Assembly (NCBI GenBank): GCA_014239575.1
Contig: JAAZYQ010000002.1
Span: forward strand, 1 to 64,000
From: Gammaproteobacteria bacterium
GTDB lineage: Bacteria; Pseudomonadota; Gammaproteobacteria; Arenicellales; UBA868
DNA: 64,000 bases
Direction of reading: 5' to 3'
Below the pieces are notes generated by a model that did not search any database, was not told the DNA's origin, and saw nothing but the letters and a program-made list of their open reading frames with translations. Within the stretch, counting starts at the first letter, position 1. Every line of letters begins with the position of its first letter. Position numbers and translations under genes: made by a program. Of the stretch, positions 4,485 to 12,320 are shown in pieces.

Positions 4485-4952
4485 ATGTCAATCAAAACAC
4501 GGTTACTGAACCGAAGTCTCCTACGGGTTGCCGGCGCGCTTGCATGGCTGGCGACCCCTCTACCGGCATCGGCAGGGCCCTCTATCGGCGCATGGCTGAG
4601 CGCGACAATCGAAAACGGAACGCCGGTTCAGACTGATACTTTGCGTTTTGGCTGCAACGACAAGATCTACGCGGTGATTGACCTAACTGACCTTTCTGAG
4701 GGTAGTCATCAATTGCAAGTCGACTGGACCGATCCCACAGGAAAAACCCGCGAACACATCGATTACCCATTTCCCAGCGGTAGCACCAGCCGCATTACGG
4801 TGTGGCTGCAATTGCATCCACCTAAAGGCGCCGCGCTTTTCAGTTTCTTAAACCCAGCCATGGGAATGGACGATTTTATCGGCACCTGGCAGGTCGAAAT
4901 TACCCTTGATAGCAAAACCCGCCTGGACCAATCTTTTGAGGTGCTCTGTTAG
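4485..4952 (+). CDS. Secreted hypothetical protein (155 aa)
   Basis: Unknown function. A clear Sec signal peptide (hydrophobic LLRVAGALAWLATPLPASA, cleavage after ASA at about residue 30) is followed by a beta-rich domain of ~125 residues. The mature part has two cysteines, one near residue 57 and one as the last residue, which could form a disulfide in the periplasm. The ATG is 2 nt after the aminotransferase stop, implying translational coupling, but a periplasmic beta-sandwich has no evident link to that enzyme. Confidence 0.75.
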   Translation: MSIKTRLLNRSLLRVAGALAWLATPLPASAGPSIGAWLSATIENGTPVQTDTLRFGCNDKIYAVIDLTDLSEGSHQLQVDWTDPTGKTREHIDYPFPSGSTSRITVWLQLHPPKGAALFSFLNPAMGMDDFIGTWQVEITLDSKTRLDQSFEVLC

Positions 4953-5162: not shown

Positions 5163-6146
5163 ATGAGATTGGTCACCATATTCGCTCTTTTTTGCTTGAG
5201 TACCGCAGCGTTCGCAGAGGACACGGACGATGTAGATCGTATCGATGAAACCCATGCACAATGGTCCGAATGGGTCACTGATACCGCAAACCAGATTGAC
5301 GGTTTTTTTGGTAATAAGTATGCAGACAAATCGGTTCAGAAAACCCGCCTTCGTGTATTTGTCCGTTTTCGCTACGACGGAAATGAAGGCACCAAGATCA
5401 GCCCCGGCATACGCGCGAAAATTTCCTTGCCCAGCGTCGAAAACCGGTTGCACTTAATGCTGGGTAACGACGAAGATGAAACCAGGGTGGATGGCATAGA
5501 CGACAAACAACAAAATATCAGCCTGCAATTCAAGCCACGGGCAGATAAACCTTGGCAACAGCTTCGCTATGACATCGGCATCAGACGGCGTGATGGAAAA
5601 TACCAACCCTATGGCCGCATTCGCCATAGCAAAACCTTTCTGACCAAAAGCCCCTGGATTCCTCGGGTCAGCAATTCGTTTTACTACTTCACTAAAAGCA
5701 AGTTTGAGTACCGCGGCGAAGCAAGCTTCGACCGAGTCCTAAGCCCGCATTTGTTTTTTCGCCCGACCTCAGTATTGCGCTGGTATCAGAATAACCCAGG
5801 CCAGTGCGATGGTGGCTGGTGTTTTGATCAGAATTTCAGCCTCTACGAAAAACTACGCCGATCCCGATCTGAGGCCATCGCCTACGATGCCCAGATCTAT
5901 CTTCGCGATAAACCCCAGTTCACGCTGCATGATGCGGTCTTCAAAGCCCGCTACCGACGCATGACCAGCAAACAGTGGCTTTTCTGGGAGATCGAGCCCG
6001 CGATTCATTTCCCGGATGAGTACAATCACGAACCCACTTTCCGACTCACTTTTAGGATCGAGGGTATTTTTGGACATAACGACAGAGTCGACATTAATCA
6101 GGACTTCATTCCGGTGGAGTCTCTTTGGAAAAATGAAGACCCGTAA
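5163..6146 (+). CDS. Putative outer-membrane/secreted beta-rich protein (327 aa)
   Basis: Unknown function. The signal peptide (MRLVTIFALFCLSTAAFA) is followed by an acidic stretch and then alternating hydrophobic/charged segments rich in aromatic residues, such as FYYFTKSKFEYRGEASF and HLFFRPTSVLRWYQ. The pattern resembles transmembrane beta-strands of an outer-membrane barrel, and the protein ends FRIEGIFGHND..., like a final strand, although a short charged tail follows. Two cysteines near residue 220 are close together (QCDGGWC). It ends 5 nt before the converging lytic-transglycosylase remnant. Barrel assignment is inference from strand pattern. Confidence 0.7.
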   Translation: MRLVTIFALFCLSTAAFAEDTDDVDRIDETHAQWSEWVTDTANQIDGFFGNKYADKSVQKTRLRVFVRFRYDGNEGTKISPGIRAKISLPSVENRLHLMLGNDEDETRVDGIDDKQQNISLQFKPRADKPWQQLRYDIGIRRRDGKYQPYGRIRHSKTFLTKSPWIPRVSNSFYYFTKSKFEYRGEASFDRVLSPHLFFRPTSVLRWYQNNPGQCDGGWCFDQNFSLYEKLRRSRSEAIAYDAQIYLRDKPQFTLHDAVFKARYRRMTSKQWLFWEIEPAIHFPDEYNHEPTFRLTFRIEGIFGHNDRVDINQDFIPVESLWKNEDP

Positions 6147-6151
6147 TTAAA

Positions 6152-6442
6152 TCAACTCGCTGGATCAGATTCGAGCCGGTTCTCCAAATACAGTTTGTAG
6201 GCAATTTTTATAGGAGGACTGTGGATATTGCGCACATAATCAACCGTTTCACGTCTGATCTTCTCGGCTGCCAGTACCTCCACGGTGCCAAACCAGATGT
6301 TCGGATCAAACCCACGATCAGCAGATAGTTTGCACAACCGGCGAATACGATTAGGTCCCGCATTATACGAAGCCAAAAAGAGTACAGCCAAAAGGCAGCC
6401 CAGCGTCCGGGTGGTGGTATCTAATTTCAAACCCTGTCCCAA
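6152..6442 (-). pseudogene. C-terminal remnant of a lytic murein transglycosylase (MltF-like)
   Basis: About 75 residues match the end of soluble/MltF-type lytic transglycosylase domains: ASYNAGPNRIRRL followed by GFDPNIWFGTVEV and AAEKIRRETVDYVRNI, then IAYKLYLE. The catalytic glutamate region and everything before it are absent. The short upstream extension in this frame does not resemble the family and meets a stop near 6480. The fragment sits directly after the MetE-like gene on the same strand, so the parent gene was probably deleted by recombination at about 6440. Confidence 0.7.
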
Positions 6443-6497: not shown

Positions 6498-7556
6498 TCA
6501 CCGAAGGCTTCGTGAGGCTTCACACAGGTTTGTCAGTTTTGCCCGTGCCAACTCACGACCCAACAGGCCAAGTCCACAATCTGGGGCTGCCAGTAACCGT
6601 TCTGGGTCGATATGCGCCAGGGCTAACTGCAATCGACCTCGGATTTCCTCAACCGACTCTACAGTGCTTTTTGCGACAGTCACAACGCCCAGGATCACTG
6701 AGGTGTTGTTAAATTTCTCCAGCAAACCTAGATCATTGTGCCGATGTGCATCCTCAAGCGATACCGCGTCGATTGACGAATCTTCGATTGCCCCAGCGAG
6801 TTCGGCGTAACTGTGTGGATCAGCCTTGGGGTAATCAGGATTATCCAGACGATCGGGATAACCGCAACACATATGCACCGTTCGAATCACATTCTTGGGG
6901 CACTTGTGAAACGCACGCTCAAGATTTTCGAAACCATAATCCAGAGCGGGGCCAGGTTTACGGGCAAAAAGGGGTTCGTCAATCTGGATATGACGACAAC
7001 CCGCTTGAGCAAGATTCAACACTTCGACGTTGAGGGCATCAGCGAGGTCAGCGCCTCGATGTCCGGGATCATCATAGAAGCTATCGGCGGTAGTATCACC
7101 AATCGTCATCGGCCCAGGCATGGTCATCTTTACTGGCCTGTCGGTCAGTTCCTGAGCACGTTTCCAATCATGTACCAGAAACGGTTCGCGGGCGCTTACC
7201 CGTCCGGTGATAGTGGGTAGGCGCGCAACGTAGGCGCCATTGCGCAACGATTTTTCGGTGAGATGGGAAAAATCGATACCGTCTAAATACCGGCAATGAT
7301 AGTGAATATAATTTTCTCGGGGTACTTCTCCGTCTGTGGGTATATCAATACCGGCTGATTGCTGATCGGCTATTGCCTGGGCTACGCCACGGGTCAGAAT
7401 ATCTTCGACATTCTCACCCATCGCTGCCATAGCCTCACTCCAACTCTGGGTGGGGTCCGCAGTATCGGGACCTTCAGCGACCGTAAACCAATCCGGCAGT
7501 TCAACAAATTCGGGCTTAGGATAAGCGCCTATGCAGGTTGTTCTTATTTTTCTCAT
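6498..7556 (-). CDS. MetE-like cobalamin-independent methyltransferase (C-terminal domain type)
   Basis: A 352-residue stand-alone protein of the UROD/MetE-like (methionine synthase II) fold. These zinc enzymes transfer a methyl group to a thiol such as homocysteine. It begins RTTCIGAYPKP, the usual 'GSxPRP' entry motif. It carries the substrate motif IQIDEPLFARKP near residue 198 and candidate zinc ligands in HMCCGYPD (~235) and PDCGLG (~325). It lacks the N-terminal half of E. coli MetE, so the methyl donor is probably not the polyglutamated folate used by full MetE; the donor is unknown. It lies 86 bp downstream of the ABC permease on the same strand and may belong to that operon. Confidence 0.82.
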   Translation of the reverse strand: MRKIRTTCIGAYPKPEFVELPDWFTVAEGPDTADPTQSWSEAMAAMGENVEDILTRGVAQAIADQQSAGIDIPTDGEVPRENYIHYHCRYLDGIDFSHLTEKSLRNGAYVARLPTITGRVSAREPFLVHDWKRAQELTDRPVKMTMPGPMTIGDTTADSFYDDPGHRGADLADALNVEVLNLAQAGCRHIQIDEPLFARKPGPALDYGFENLERAFHKCPKNVIRTVHMCCGYPDRLDNPDYPKADPHSYAELAGAIEDSSIDAVSLEDAHRHNDLGLLEKFNNTSVILGVVTVAKSTVESVEEIRGRLQLALAHIDPERLLAAPDCGLGLLGRELARAKLTNLCEASRSLR

Positions 7557-7642: not shown

Positions 7643-8935
7643 TCAGTCATCCTTAGTCTCTGAATCTACCTGCCCGTCTAAATTGGTAGGGGCAAAAATA
7701 TTCTGGTACTGACGGCCTGCCTGGTTGGTCTCGACAGCGGGTGTCGAACCAGAGTCGGATGCAGATGGCTCAGTTGAATCAATCTGATTGCCAAGGTTGG
7801 TAGGCGCAAAGATATTCTGGTACTGACGGCCTGCCTGGTTGGTCTCGACAGCAGCATCCGCATCCTGGCTGTTCGCCTCCCGTTTGGCCTTCGCCTCCGC
7901 GAGGCGTTGCTGTTTTAGAGCATCAAACTTCTTACGGTTCTCTTCGGTCACCTGCACCTTGCACTGTGCGACATCATAATCACGAGCGATCCATGCTGTG
8001 GCCAACATTGCGACAAAAATAAGACTGGCCAAGGCACCTACCGGAACCCGCAGCGTGCGGTTACCCGAGCGCGAACGAGTTGGGGCTGGCAAGCCCTCTA
8101 GCGAAAGTGCCTCGGATTTCGCGGCTTCTTTTCGCCGTAGGAATTCGTGAATCACTGCCCCAACCAGAGTAAGGACAATAATAATGACAGCCAGTGCGCT
8201 GATCGATGGATTGATTCCGTATCGGACTTTGCTGGCTAAGACCGTTGTTAGAGTGCTTTCTGAAACGATTGTGAATACGGTCGTATTGTAGTTTTCGAAC
8301 GAAGCCAAAAATGCAAGCACGGCAGCCGAGGCTATGGCGGGCTTAAGAAAAGGCAGTAGAATTTTTCGAAAAACCTGAGTATGGGTAGCCCCCAGATCAA
8401 GTGCCGCTTCTTCAAGTCCTCGGTCAAAACGCTGCAGTCGGGCCAGAAACACCAACATCGCATAAGCGGCAATAAACGTGGACTGGCCGATAATGGTCAT
8501 GAAATAACCATCGTAAAAAAAGCTTTCTTCTACGCCCAGAACCACACGGTCTATCCGTTCCCAGAACACCAGGGTCGAGATACCCAGAACAACACCCGGT
8601 ACTAATATGGGCGATATCGCGATGGTATAAACAATGGAACGTGCGCGTTTTTGCAACTGCGTTATCAGCAGTGACGCCGCCAGTCCAATGGGAACCGCCA
8701 GCAGGACGACACCAATGCCAACTAATAAACTGCTTCGCAGGCCTCCCATTAAATGCTGATCTTTGAATAGCACCCCGAACCATTCGCCGGTAACGCAGTT
8801 CCACGGAGAGATTGAGGGAAACTCTGAACTGTTGAAAGCCGTAAACGACATGACAATCAATGGGCCAAACAAGTAGGTAAAGAACAGCAGAATATAAAAA
8901 CCGACTGCCAGGCGCAGCACACCGGCCGATGTCAT
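7643..8935 (-). CDS. Pot-type ABC transporter permease with extra TM and repeated C-terminal tail
   Basis: Inner-membrane permease related to PotC/PotI. The first ~270 residues form the usual six-helix domain with the EAA loop (EEAALDLGATHTQVFRKILLPFLKPAI near residue 190). Typical family members end near 265-290; this one has 430 residues. After a basic linker comes a seventh hydrophobic helix (VGALASLIFVAMLATAWIA, about 300-318), then a charged helix (RLAEAKAKREA), then two copies of NQAGRQYQNIFAPTNL separated by a Ser/Thr/Pro/Glu-rich linker. An added helix would place the tail in the periplasm. Its start overlaps the stop of the partner permease by 4 nt, so translation is coupled. Confidence 0.88.
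   Translation of the reverse strand: MTSAGVLRLAVGFYILLFFTYLFGPLIVMSFTAFNSSEFPSISPWNCVTGEWFGVLFKDQHLMGGLRSSLLVGIGVVLLAVPIGLAASLLITQLQKRARSIVYTIAISPILVPGVVLGISTLVFWERIDRVVLGVEESFFYDGYFMTIIGQSTFIAAYAMLVFLARLQRFDRGLEEAALDLGATHTQVFRKILLPFLKPAIASAAVLAFLASFENYNTTVFTIVSESTLTTVLASKVRYGINPSISALAVIIIVLTLVGAVIHEFLRRKEAAKSEALSLEGLPAPTRSRSGNRTLRVPVGALASLIFVAMLATAWIARDYDVAQCKVQVTEENRKKFDALKQQRLAEAKAKREANSQDADAAVETNQAGRQYQNIFAPTNLGNQIDSTEPSASDSGSTPAVETNQAGRQYQNIFAPTNLDGQVDSETKDD
7683..7852. repeat. 56-bp tandemly spaced direct repeat inside the permease tail
   Basis: Copies at 7683-7738 and 7797-7852 differ at only two positions and are 114 bp (38 codons) apart, preserving frame. They encode the duplicated NQAGRQYQNIFAPTNL segment. 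Near identity at DNA level points to a recent internal duplication or to ongoing gene conversion. Confidence 0.95.
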
Positions 8936-9864
8936 CGGCCAATCTCTCCAATCTTGACTTTAAATATCCGCATGATGGCGAGCACCAGCAGGACACAGGA
9001 GAGCATTAAGACAATGGCGTAGGCTGAGCCACGCGGCCAGTTGCTGCCGGTATTGAACCACTGGTAGATAATCTGCGTAAACCACAGACTGCTGGGGCCT
9101 CCAAGAATCTGGGGCGCTGCCAACGCGCCGGCCGACAACATGAATACCATCGTACAGCCGGAGCTAATTCCCGGTTTGGCAAATGGGATCACTACCCGAC
9201 GGTGAATTCTGACCCAGGATGCTCCCAAATCCCGGGCGGCCTCTATCTGGTTCTTGTCCAGACTCTCCACAACGTTATAGATTGGAAAAATCATTAACAG
9301 GATATAGGCGTAACCCAAGCCGGCATACAGCGCCACATCCTCCCTAACAAAGTCGATCGGTTGATCTAAAGCACCGATGGACAGAAGGATTGCGTTAATA
9401 GTGCCTTCCTCACCAAACAGGATTCTAAAAGCGAAGGCACGCAGTAGTTCATTTATCCAAAAGGGAATGATCAAAAAAAGCACTAGCAGGCGCGCCTTGC
9501 CACCGCGTGCGACTTGCGCAAGGTAATAGGCAATGGGGTAACACAGAGCAAGATCGAACAGGGTTACGAATATCGCGGCGATAATCGTGCGAAAGAATAC
9601 CGTAACATCGACCACATTAAACGGATCTGGGTTGTTAGGGCTGCCGTAAGCCAGAAAATGATAATTGACAAACGTGTAGACATCGTCGGGGCCGCCCATG
9701 CGCGAGGGATCAATCTGTTGCCAGTTGTGCCTAAAAGAGAAATCCAGCATGAACAGCTGAGGCAGCACGATCATGAGTACGATCCACAGCGCAACTGCGA
9801 CCAACATATACAACGACAGCATTGTGCCATTTCTGGCCAGGAACCTTCTGAACCAGACAGCCAT
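8932..9864 (-). CDS. Pot-type ABC transporter permease (PotB/PotH-like)
   Basis: Integral membrane permease of 310 residues with an N-terminal helix (LYMLVAVALWIVLMIVLPQLFML), five further helices and the EAA loop EAARDLGASWVRIHRRVVIPFAKPGI near residue 210, which docks on the ATPase. The periplasmic loop after TM1 is long (about 55 residues), as in PotB/PotH. Four-base overlap with the following permease and a 16-bp gap from the ATPase show one operon. The family imports spermidine, putrescine and related cations, but substrate choice lies in the binding protein. Confidence 0.92.
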   Translation of the reverse strand: MAVWFRRFLARNGTMLSLYMLVAVALWIVLMIVLPQLFMLDFSFRHNWQQIDPSRMGGPDDVYTFVNYHFLAYGSPNNPDPFNVVDVTVFFRTIIAAIFVTLFDLALCYPIAYYLAQVARGGKARLLVLFLIIPFWINELLRAFAFRILFGEEGTINAILLSIGALDQPIDFVREDVALYAGLGYAYILLMIFPIYNVVESLDKNQIEAARDLGASWVRIHRRVVIPFAKPGISSGCTMVFMLSAGALAAPQILGGPSSLWFTQIIYQWFNTGSNWPRGSAYAIVLMLSCVLLVLAIMRIFKVKIGEIGR

Positions 9865-9880: not shown

Positions 9881-10975
9881 TTACTCAGCCGCGAGTTCGC
9901 CCTGGGCCAGCGCTATCGCTCCCTGGGCTGTAAAACTGATGGAAACTCGGGAGCCCAACTCATAGGTTTCACTCTCGCCATCATTCATCACGGACATACG
10001 AATCACACTGCCTTCGACTGTTTGCAGCACCAAGTGCCAGAAGTGCCCCTCGAACTCCTGGTTGACCACGGTAACCTCGAGCCGATTTTGCGACGCACCT
10101 GGATCAGCAAAACGAACTGACTCCGGTCGGACAAACACAATTCCGGCATCGCCCGAAGTTAAAGGTGATACCGCAGATACCTCTGCCTGTAGTACGCCTG
10201 ACTTGGTCTGCACACTAGCAATGCCTTGAGTGACTTCGATCACCCGGCCTGGGAAAGCATTGTTTTCACCCACAAATGAGGCCACAAATGCGGTCTCTGG
10301 CCGGTCATACACGATAGTGCCATCACTCACTTGATCAATCGTACCCTCGCGCATAACCGCGACTCGATCCGACATAGTCAACGCCTCACCTTGGTCATGA
10401 GTGATATAAATAAAGGTAATGCCCGCACGTTGCTGGATAGCACGAAGTTCGGTGCGCATGTGTTGGCGCAACTTCAGATCCAATGCTGACAGAGGCTCAT
10501 CGAGCAACAGCACCTCGGGTTCGGCACACAAAGCCCGGGCAACAGCGACCCGCTGTTTCTGGCCACCGGAAAGCTCATCGACCATCTTGTCACCCTGGCC
10601 TGGTAGAGCGACTAACTCCAAGAGTTCATCGGCCTTTTTACGCCGGACCGATTTATTAACCCCTTTCACTTCAAGGGCAAAAGAAATGTTTTCCCACACG
10701 CTCATTAGCGGAAATAGCGCGAGGTTCTGAAAAATCAATGCTGTCGGCCGCTGGTTGGGGCCAGTGCCCGCCATATCCTGCCCGCCGATCAAAACCCGTC
10801 CCCGGCTGGGCTCTTGAAAACCCGATATGGCTCGCAGCAATGTTGTTTTACCGCAACCCGAGGGGCCGAGAAAGCTGAAAAACTCCCCACCCTGGATGGT
10901 GAGGCTGGTATCACGAACCGCGACAAAATCGCCAAACTGTACCCAAACATTTTCAAGCTGAACATCTGCGCTCAT
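9881..10975 (-). CDS. Pot-type ABC transporter ATP-binding protein (PotA-like)
   Basis: Cytoplasmic ATPase of 364 residues that powers the importer. Walker A GPSGCGKTT near residue 37, Q-loop FQNLALFP, signature LSGGQKQR near 136, Walker B VLLLDEP near 156 and the switch histidine in YITHDQGEA near 194 are all intact. The C-terminal ~120 residues form the TOBE-type regulatory domain of the CUT1/PotA group (FVRPESVRF). It precedes the two permeases. The 154-bp gap to the binding-protein gene holds an intrinsic terminator, so ATPase and permeases are probably expressed less than the binding protein. Confidence 0.95.
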   Translation of the reverse strand: MSADVQLENVWVQFGDFVAVRDTSLTIQGGEFFSFLGPSGCGKTTLLRAISGFQEPSRGRVLIGGQDMAGTGPNQRPTALIFQNLALFPLMSVWENISFALEVKGVNKSVRRKKADELLELVALPGQGDKMVDELSGGQKQRVAVARALCAEPEVLLLDEPLSALDLKLRQHMRTELRAIQQRAGITFIYITHDQGEALTMSDRVAVMREGTIDQVSDGTIVYDRPETAFVASFVGENNAFPGRVIEVTQGIASVQTKSGVLQAEVSAVSPLTSGDAGIVFVRPESVRFADPGASQNRLEVTVVNQEFEGHFWHLVLQTVEGSVIRMSVMNDGESETYELGSRVSISFTAQGAIALAQGELAAE

Positions 10976-11129: not shown

Positions 11130-12320
11130 TTAGGCGTTTACGAACTTATTACGGTACTCAGTACGGACATCTGCATACCACTGCGGCTCTTTCGGCCATG
11201 GCCAGAGGTTGGCCAGCGAGTTGCCGGGGTAGATCTGGTTGAACCATTTGCCGTAATCAGCGCTCGCGTACTTATCAGCACCCAATACAGCAGAGTTGTA
11301 GCCATGTTGTCCCCAGTCAGCGATACCGCCCCCATCGATTGACCGCCCTGCCGCTTTGGCGTCGAAGCAGTAATTCAGGAAGGCGTAGGTCTCGTCGACG
11401 TTTTCTGCCGCTGAAGAAATACACAAACCGTCTACCCATGCCAACGATCCTTCGATCGGTGCTCGATATATGACGGGCTTGCCTTCTTTCATCTGCACGG
11501 TAGGCGGTCCATCCCAAGTCTGCCCAACGACGACACCACCACTCATGAAGCCGTTTTTCTGGCTATCGGCGTCGTTCCAAAAGAGTTTAATCTGACTCTT
11601 ATGCTTGATGCAGAAATCAGTGACTACCTGCCAAGTTTTACGCATGGTCGCCTCATCCGCATACGCCGCTCGCATAGCGCCTGGATCCAAGGCACCTGTA
11701 GTTTCCAGGTACAAACCAGCTCCGAGCATGCCCGAGTGCGGGCGCATCATGGTTTTACCCTCTACATCACTTTGCCAGACATCTCCATAACTTGGCATTT
11801 CTCCGTCACGCGGCGGTGTCCACTTGTCGGCACGCCATGCAATTCCTTCAGTGCCCCATATCTGAGGCAGCCAATGAGAGCCTTTCCCGCCAAAACTCCA
11901 CTCGTTATCGCCTACGGCGAGCATCGCCGGATTCAGGTTCTTAACATTAGGAATACGGTCGTAATCAATGGCTTGGAGCAAATCTAACGGCTCCCACTGT
12001 AACGATCGCATATTGGTTGGACTGCAAACATCGAAACCCTTCCCCTTGGTCGCTTTCATCTTATTGATGATTTCTTCGTTTGAACCAATGCCGGTGAAAT
12101 TCACGGTAATCCCGGTTTCTTCTTTAAAGGATTTAAGGAATCCCGGCGGACAATAATCCGACCACAACAGCACGTTGACTTCGCCCGAAGACGCAAGCGC
12201 CTTTGAACTGATGATCCACGGGCCTACGGCTGCAGCCGTTGATACCGCGGCGGACCGCTTGACGAACGATCGACGTCCCGTATCTACCTCAACTCCCTTC
12301 TTATTTTTCTCCAGACTCAT
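11130..12320 (-). CDS. Periplasmic solute-binding protein of a Pot-type ABC importer
   Basis: Extracellular binding protein of 396 residues in the PotD/PotF class. The N-terminus has a twin-arginine signal (RRSFVKRSAAVSTAAAVGPW, cleavage near ALAS at ~45), so it is probably exported folded. The mature part starts VNVLLWSDYCPPGFLKSFKEETG, the normal first strand and helix of the family. Unlike the PotD pattern it has several cysteines (SDYC, FDVC, DFC, GLC, NYC). The substrate cannot be told from sequence; proximity to a transaminase, MocR regulator and Xsc suggests an amino compound (taurine, a diamine or similar), which is inference. Confidence 0.9.
   Translation of the reverse strand: MSLEKNKKGVEVDTGRRSFVKRSAAVSTAAAVGPWIISSKALASSGEVNVLLWSDYCPPGFLKSFKEETGITVNFTGIGSNEEIINKMKATKGKGFDVCSPTNMRSLQWEPLDLLQAIDYDRIPNVKNLNPAMLAVGDNEWSFGGKGSHWLPQIWGTEGIAWRADKWTPPRDGEMPSYGDVWQSDVEGKTMMRPHSGMLGAGLYLETTGALDPGAMRAAYADEATMRKTWQVVTDFCIKHKSQIKLFWNDADSQKNGFMSGGVVVGQTWDGPPTVQMKEGKPVIYRAPIEGSLAWVDGLCISSAAENVDETYAFLNYCFDAKAAGRSIDGGGIADWGQHGYNSAVLGADKYASADYGKWFNQIYPGNSLANLWPWPKEPQWYADVRTEYRNKFVNA

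Follow-up and report, generated by a model that had tools for sequence, protein, structure and literature searches.

The nearest solved relative of the permease described here, by sequence as well as by fold, is PotC of the Escherichia coli PotD-PotABC importer (PDB 8y5f, 8y5i; PMC11414716). E. coli PotC crosses the membrane six times and exposes three loops, P1 to P3, to the periplasm, P1 being the one between TM1 and TM2 (PMC11414716). The two proteins share the core fold, the PF00528 domain and the partner set of PotA, PotB and a solute-binding protein (SBP), but E. coli PotC is only about 27% identical, keeps to six helices, is tail-less and has no cysteine at position 47.

The permease lies in a window of 64,000 nucleotides, the whole stretch that was analysed (positions 1 to 64,000 of contig JAAZYQ010000002.1, from a gammaproteobacterium of the order Arenicellales). 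ORF 7643-8935 on the minus strand encodes 430 amino acids uninterrupted by stops, including between residues 290 and 430, where a stop codon would have spoken against the earlier note on this DNA. Residues 81-269 match PF00528 (BPD_transp_1; E=3.4e-16, 59.9 bits against a gathering score of 26.4), and the EAA coupling motif is conserved in the family alignment as EAALDLGA, with AALDLGA invariant. Against the PotC equivalog NF007047 the protein scores 121 bits, short of the curated 326, and by this sequence score it is not classed as PotC itself. Hydropathy and AlphaFold give seven hydrophobic helices, in place of the six helices and cytoplasmic C-terminus of the PotC type. A seventh helix, a charged segment and two tail copies are what the earlier note had described, and all three are confirmed by the ORF, hydropathy, AlphaFold and comparison of the repeats. 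The same tail is found in three relatives at 95-96% identity and is thus not an assembly artefact; since many genomes have the same frame and tail, a frameshift is likewise ruled out. The features of the operon and of the permease are as follows.

6498..7556, minus strand: MetE catalytic-domain protein, a conserved neighbour (PF01717; linked in gammaproteobacterial and several alphaproteobacterial loci)
7643..8935, minus strand: PotC/PotI-like ABC permease with TM7 and repeat tail (PF00528; best fold match E. coli PotC, 8y5f_C)
8932..9864, minus strand: partner permease, PotB-like (NF007044, E=2e-46, under the curated cutoff)
9881..10975, minus strand: ATP-binding subunit, PotA/PhnT2-like (PF00005, TOBE_2)
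11130..12320, minus strand: solute-binding protein, PotD-like, with a twin-arginine-type signal; candidate tail partner (PF13416; PotD matches in PDB)
8795..8797, minus strand: Cys47 codon, in periplasmic loop P1 between TM1 and TM2 (co-occurs with Cys325; not a cysteine in the E. coli PotC alignment)
8042..8146, minus strand: predicted cytoplasmic loop between TM6 and TM7, positively charged (8 K/R, net +4; pLDDT partly low)
7979..8041, minus strand: predicted TM7, residues 299-319 (hydropathy peak and AlphaFold helix)
7961..7963, minus strand: Cys325 codon, just past TM7 (conserved in the tailed clade; lost together with Cys47)
7838..7972, minus strand: putative charged helical stalk, residues 322-366 (AlphaFold pLDDT 93-98 for residues 321-350; low hydrophobic moment)
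7793..7822, minus strand: motif copy 1, YQNIFAPTNL, residues 372-381 (motif search of genome and tails)
7679..7708, minus strand: motif copy 2, YQNIFAPTNL, residues 410-419 (motif search of genome and tails)
7775..7852, minus strand: DNA repeat unit for copy 1 (repeat comparison)
7661..7738, minus strand: DNA repeat unit for copy 2 (repeat comparison)

Among the transport genes of its operon, which also encodes the SBP, the ATPase and the PotB-like permease, that of the tailed permease comes last, followed by the MetE-catalytic-domain gene. Genes for such MetE catalytic-domain-only methyltransferases are linked to the tailed importer, downstream or upstream, across Gammaproteobacteria and some Alphaproteobacteria, in the window (6498-7556) and at L038-L042, L054, L057, L059, L061, L072, L081 and L110. 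Where the flanking sequence is long enough, nearly every locus has a free PotD-like SBP gene upstream of the tailed permease; no other conserved periplasmic partner was found at these loci. Compared with the SBP of the window, those of tailed systems share at least 49% identity and those of tail-less systems at most 46%, a gap in the sequences that may reflect shared ancestry alone. As for the substrate, homology to polyamine systems (under the equivalog cutoffs), the PotD-like SBP and the agmatinase genes adjoining two loci (L059, L061) are only a hint of polyamine transport; MetE-type genes lie beside many loci, and on Ruegeria plasmids the operon adjoins sugar genes. Three other ORFs of the window matched no Pfam family. 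One, 6152-6442 on the minus strand, is possibly a gene remnant and contains the stretch YNAGPNRIRRL, which is reminiscent of lytic transglycosylases. The other two (4485-4952 and 5163-6146, plus strand) have signal-peptide-like starts and are found beside an aminotransferase gene.

The tail is no one-off oddity, since tandem-motif tails are present across two proteobacterial classes. A protein search across 60 relatives recovered full-length tailed homologues in most of the genus, in one more genus of its family and in several of the order's families; four genus members showed no copy, many of the genomes being incomplete MAGs. A scan of named genomes found tailed permeases in Alphaproteobacteria, including Litoreibacter, Ruegeria, Leisingera, Roseovarius, Bosea and others, as well as contigs titled SAR116 and Pelagibacteraceae, and further genome sampling left the picture of this clade unchanged. 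A thin draw of 399 genomes of the phylum gave a match past residue 340, and thus into the tail, in only 5 besides the window's own, and such a match was found in 2 of 369 genomes of the class. By these sequence comparisons, the tail is old and under constraint, and belongs to a clade of PotC-like permeases in Gammaproteobacteria and Alphaproteobacteria. One protein, L030 (G039), is encoded by a member of the order to which the window belongs, yet it groups with Alphaproteobacteria and is devoid of both cysteines discussed below, which its congener L189 has; horizontal transfer or bin contamination is a possible explanation. Two other tailed-type genes, L033 (G034) and L194 (G1036), encode Cys47 but have an interrupted reading frame, through either inactivation or sequencing error.

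The motif of these tails, [FY]xx[IV]F[ADS]PxNL, occurs 170 times in 86 tails, with 1-4 copies per protein whose starts are spaced 25-55 residues apart, against 0.3 copies expected in composition-preserving shuffled tails. The strict pattern was unmatched in three tails (L053, L121, L154). In two-copy genes of the genus, the copies of the motif are more alike than the spacers (identity 0.88 versus 0.53), and the same holds for all two-copy genes (0.57 versus 0.29), which argues that the motif is constrained and the spacers are not. Outside the permease, no copy was found in the window's own genome (2.5 Mb, 77% complete), and in six alphaproteobacterial genomes all matches but one, L196, which is likely due to chance, fall in tailed permeases; for these genomes, a motif common to other proteins is ruled out. 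It is not a known domain either, as the tail matched none in Pfam.

At the DNA level, the two copies in the window correspond to units of 78 nt that are 86% identical and start 114 nt, or 38 codons, apart. Within their 56-nt core, 54 of 56 positions are identical, both differences are synonymous, and the 20 residues AVETNQAGRQYQNIFAPTNL are the same in both tail copies. Units share 67% nucleotide identity within a gene versus 45% between genes, and those of one relative (L008) are 100% identical. Among the window and the sequences closest to it, stretches of the two units match in synonymous bases within a gene and differ between species, a pattern in the sequences that looks like gene conversion. 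The "recent duplication" put forward in the earlier note survives only in this sense, as a gene-conversion-like homogenisation of the copies. As an origin of the tail, a recent and unique duplication is ruled out by the tailed homologues in relatives and in Alphaproteobacteria. The copy-number variation envisaged at the same time is real: repeat number ranges from 1 to 4 between species, and strains of Leisingera caerulea have either 1 or 2. On complete plasmids of that species, the protein of M561 and S216 is 434 residues long and has two motif copies, whereas that of S185 has 400 residues and one copy; the CDS of S141 is shortened as in S185. Over their first 990 nt the genes of M561 and S185 are 99.0% identical, and at the repeat their lengths are 102 nt apart. 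Through these plasmids (L209-L211, L213), nature offers strains to compare that have one tail repeat or two, an experiment already set up.

The order of the elements beyond the core is predicted consistently. Hydropathy places an extra helix at residues 299-317 (KD 2.18) beyond the canonical six, and AlphaFold models TM7 at 299-319, a very confident helix at 322-366 and a disordered end. The homologue of Roseovarius albus has the same order (TM7 299-320, helix 323-360, disorder), so that the second helix is 38-45 residues long in two distant members; no motif is confidently placed in the models. This helix is charged and not amphipathic (hydrophobic moment 0.1-0.3, negative mean hydrophobicity), which makes a projecting stalk likelier than a helix lying on the membrane surface, the latter being unlikely. 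Among intact genes, two broken copies (L033, L194) having been set aside, both Cys47 and Cys325 are present in 83 tailed proteins and neither in 69 tail-less ones. Three tailed proteins (L030, L054, L059) also have neither, and a single cysteine was never observed. In the tree, these three form one clade nested among tailed proteins, which indicates a joint loss of two residues that are separated by about 280 positions. Read most simply, this co-occurrence suggests a Cys47-Cys325 disulfide, or "staple", although the correlation amounts to about two evolutionary events (one gain and one loss) and the cysteine-less clade keeps its tail, so that the staple would be dispensable. Such a disulfide could form only if Cys325 is periplasmic, which would place the tail there as well. 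The charges agree with the positive-inside rule, the loop before TM7 having a net charge of +4 and the repeat region one of -7. From the cysteine co-occurrence, these charges and the AlphaFold models, it is very probable that the tail lies beyond the inner membrane, and the periplasmic location proposed in the earlier note is thereby supported as a predicted topology.

What sequence comparison establishes (the ORF, the clade of tails, the constraint on the motif, the cysteine co-occurrence and the variation in copy number), together with the modelled topology, stalk and tail disorder, leads us to propose that a PotC-type permease with TM7, a disulfide staple, a stalk and a disordered, motif-bearing end tethers its free SBP. 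To this proposal as a whole we assign a probability of about 0.45. The protein would supply the PotC-type half of a polyamine-family type I ABC importer and belong to a separate clade marked by a periplasmic appendage. TM7 would bring the C-terminus out of the cytoplasm and the disulfide would staple TM7 onto the permease core, while the charged helix would act as a stalk for the disordered end and its 1-4 motifs. We infer both the disulfide and the partner, the cognate free SBP, which the motifs would bind weakly and at more than one place. At about 60 Å, the stalk should be roughly as tall as a docked SBP, and the SBP would be held near the docking face, in a non-covalent counterpart of the fused domains of OpuA and GlnPQ. 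The tether is favoured because no conserved periplasmic partner other than the SBP was found and the SBP would lie within this reach. Recombination between repeats would gain, lose and homogenise copies and so tune valency. Counting against the proposal, a single motif copy suffices in some strains. Whether all this amounts to a new importer architecture, with a disulfide-stapled TM7, a rigid periplasmic stalk and a motif array that tethers free SBPs non-covalently at a valency tuned between strains by repeat number, is a more tentative claim, held well short of even odds.

Other readings of the tail can be weighed against the same evidence. The tail motif is short, linear and conserved, of a type that serves in protein docking, and stalk plus disordered end (about 60 residues) could extend well past a docked SBP. 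The tail might bind peptidoglycan, a protein of the outer membrane or elsewhere in the envelope, or the tails of neighbouring transporters, and so place or cluster the importer. No conserved envelope-protein gene was found beside the operon in the loci examined, however, and a tail without a Pfam domain does not point to such a target either; for the cell wall, one of the partners considered in the earlier note, no supporting sign was found. We regard this reading as rather unlikely, though still the likeliest of the alternatives. It is less probable still that the motifs turn back onto the periplasmic side of the importer itself (PotB/PotC), there to control docking or gating by acting as an internal inhibitor or to help assembly. 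Staple and stalk would hold the tail near the P1 loop, as this requires, but variable copy number and spacing suit a flexible tether more than a fixed intramolecular switch, and AlphaFold does not dock the motifs with confidence.

Two further explanations do without a periplasmic function. If the extra hydrophobic stretch did not cross the membrane, the tail would be cytoplasmic, and the many positive charges directly after TM7 (9 K/R, net 0) could be read this way. This is very improbable given a 21-residue helix of such hydropathy after a positive loop, the AlphaFold models and the co-occurrence of Cys325 with a cysteine of a periplasmic loop. Finally, tandem copies are easily gained and lost, and the repeats could be mere slippage with no function; a motif kept across two classes while its spacers diverge makes this scarcely credible.

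How free SBPs find their importer, and how the number of SBPs per importer limits uptake, are central to models of low-nutrient marine bacteria (PMC8168909). A tail on one subunit of a polyamine-type importer could keep the nutrient-catching protein nearby in many marine bacteria. If the tether is true, it would be a natural, repeat-tunable one, widespread in marine bacteria and occurring with one copy or two in strains that hardly differ elsewhere, so that one could test directly how SBP capture affects uptake. Few other ABC importers would be comparable in having short linear motifs arrayed in the periplasm, a feature that the current annotation and RefSeq label, "ABC transporter permease", hides.

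Within the open-access literature, the scope of our search, no precedent for the tailed architecture was found. The tail-less PotC-like permeases of Alphaproteobacteria (L052, L055 and others) are up to 63% identical in the core and have the same operon order, but stop after TM6 with a short charged C-terminus and lack Cys47, TM7, stalk and motif. Another comparison is OpuA (PMC11065425), in which, as in our proposal, an extra anchoring helix and a linker expose a binding function outside, with more than one copy possible. GlnPQ (PMC8025302) likewise has fused substrate-binding domains exposed by an extra helix and linker, again with more than one copy possible, and the Mycoplasma PotC-SBP fusion NF043073 is another importer with a covalently fused substrate-binding domain. 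For the window permease, an additional helix and a linker that would carry the C-terminal part to the outside are predicted, in agreement with the cysteine co-occurrence. Unlike these fused importers, however, its tail consists of a helix and short motifs with no SBP domain, and the SBP is the product of a separate gene (11130-12320).
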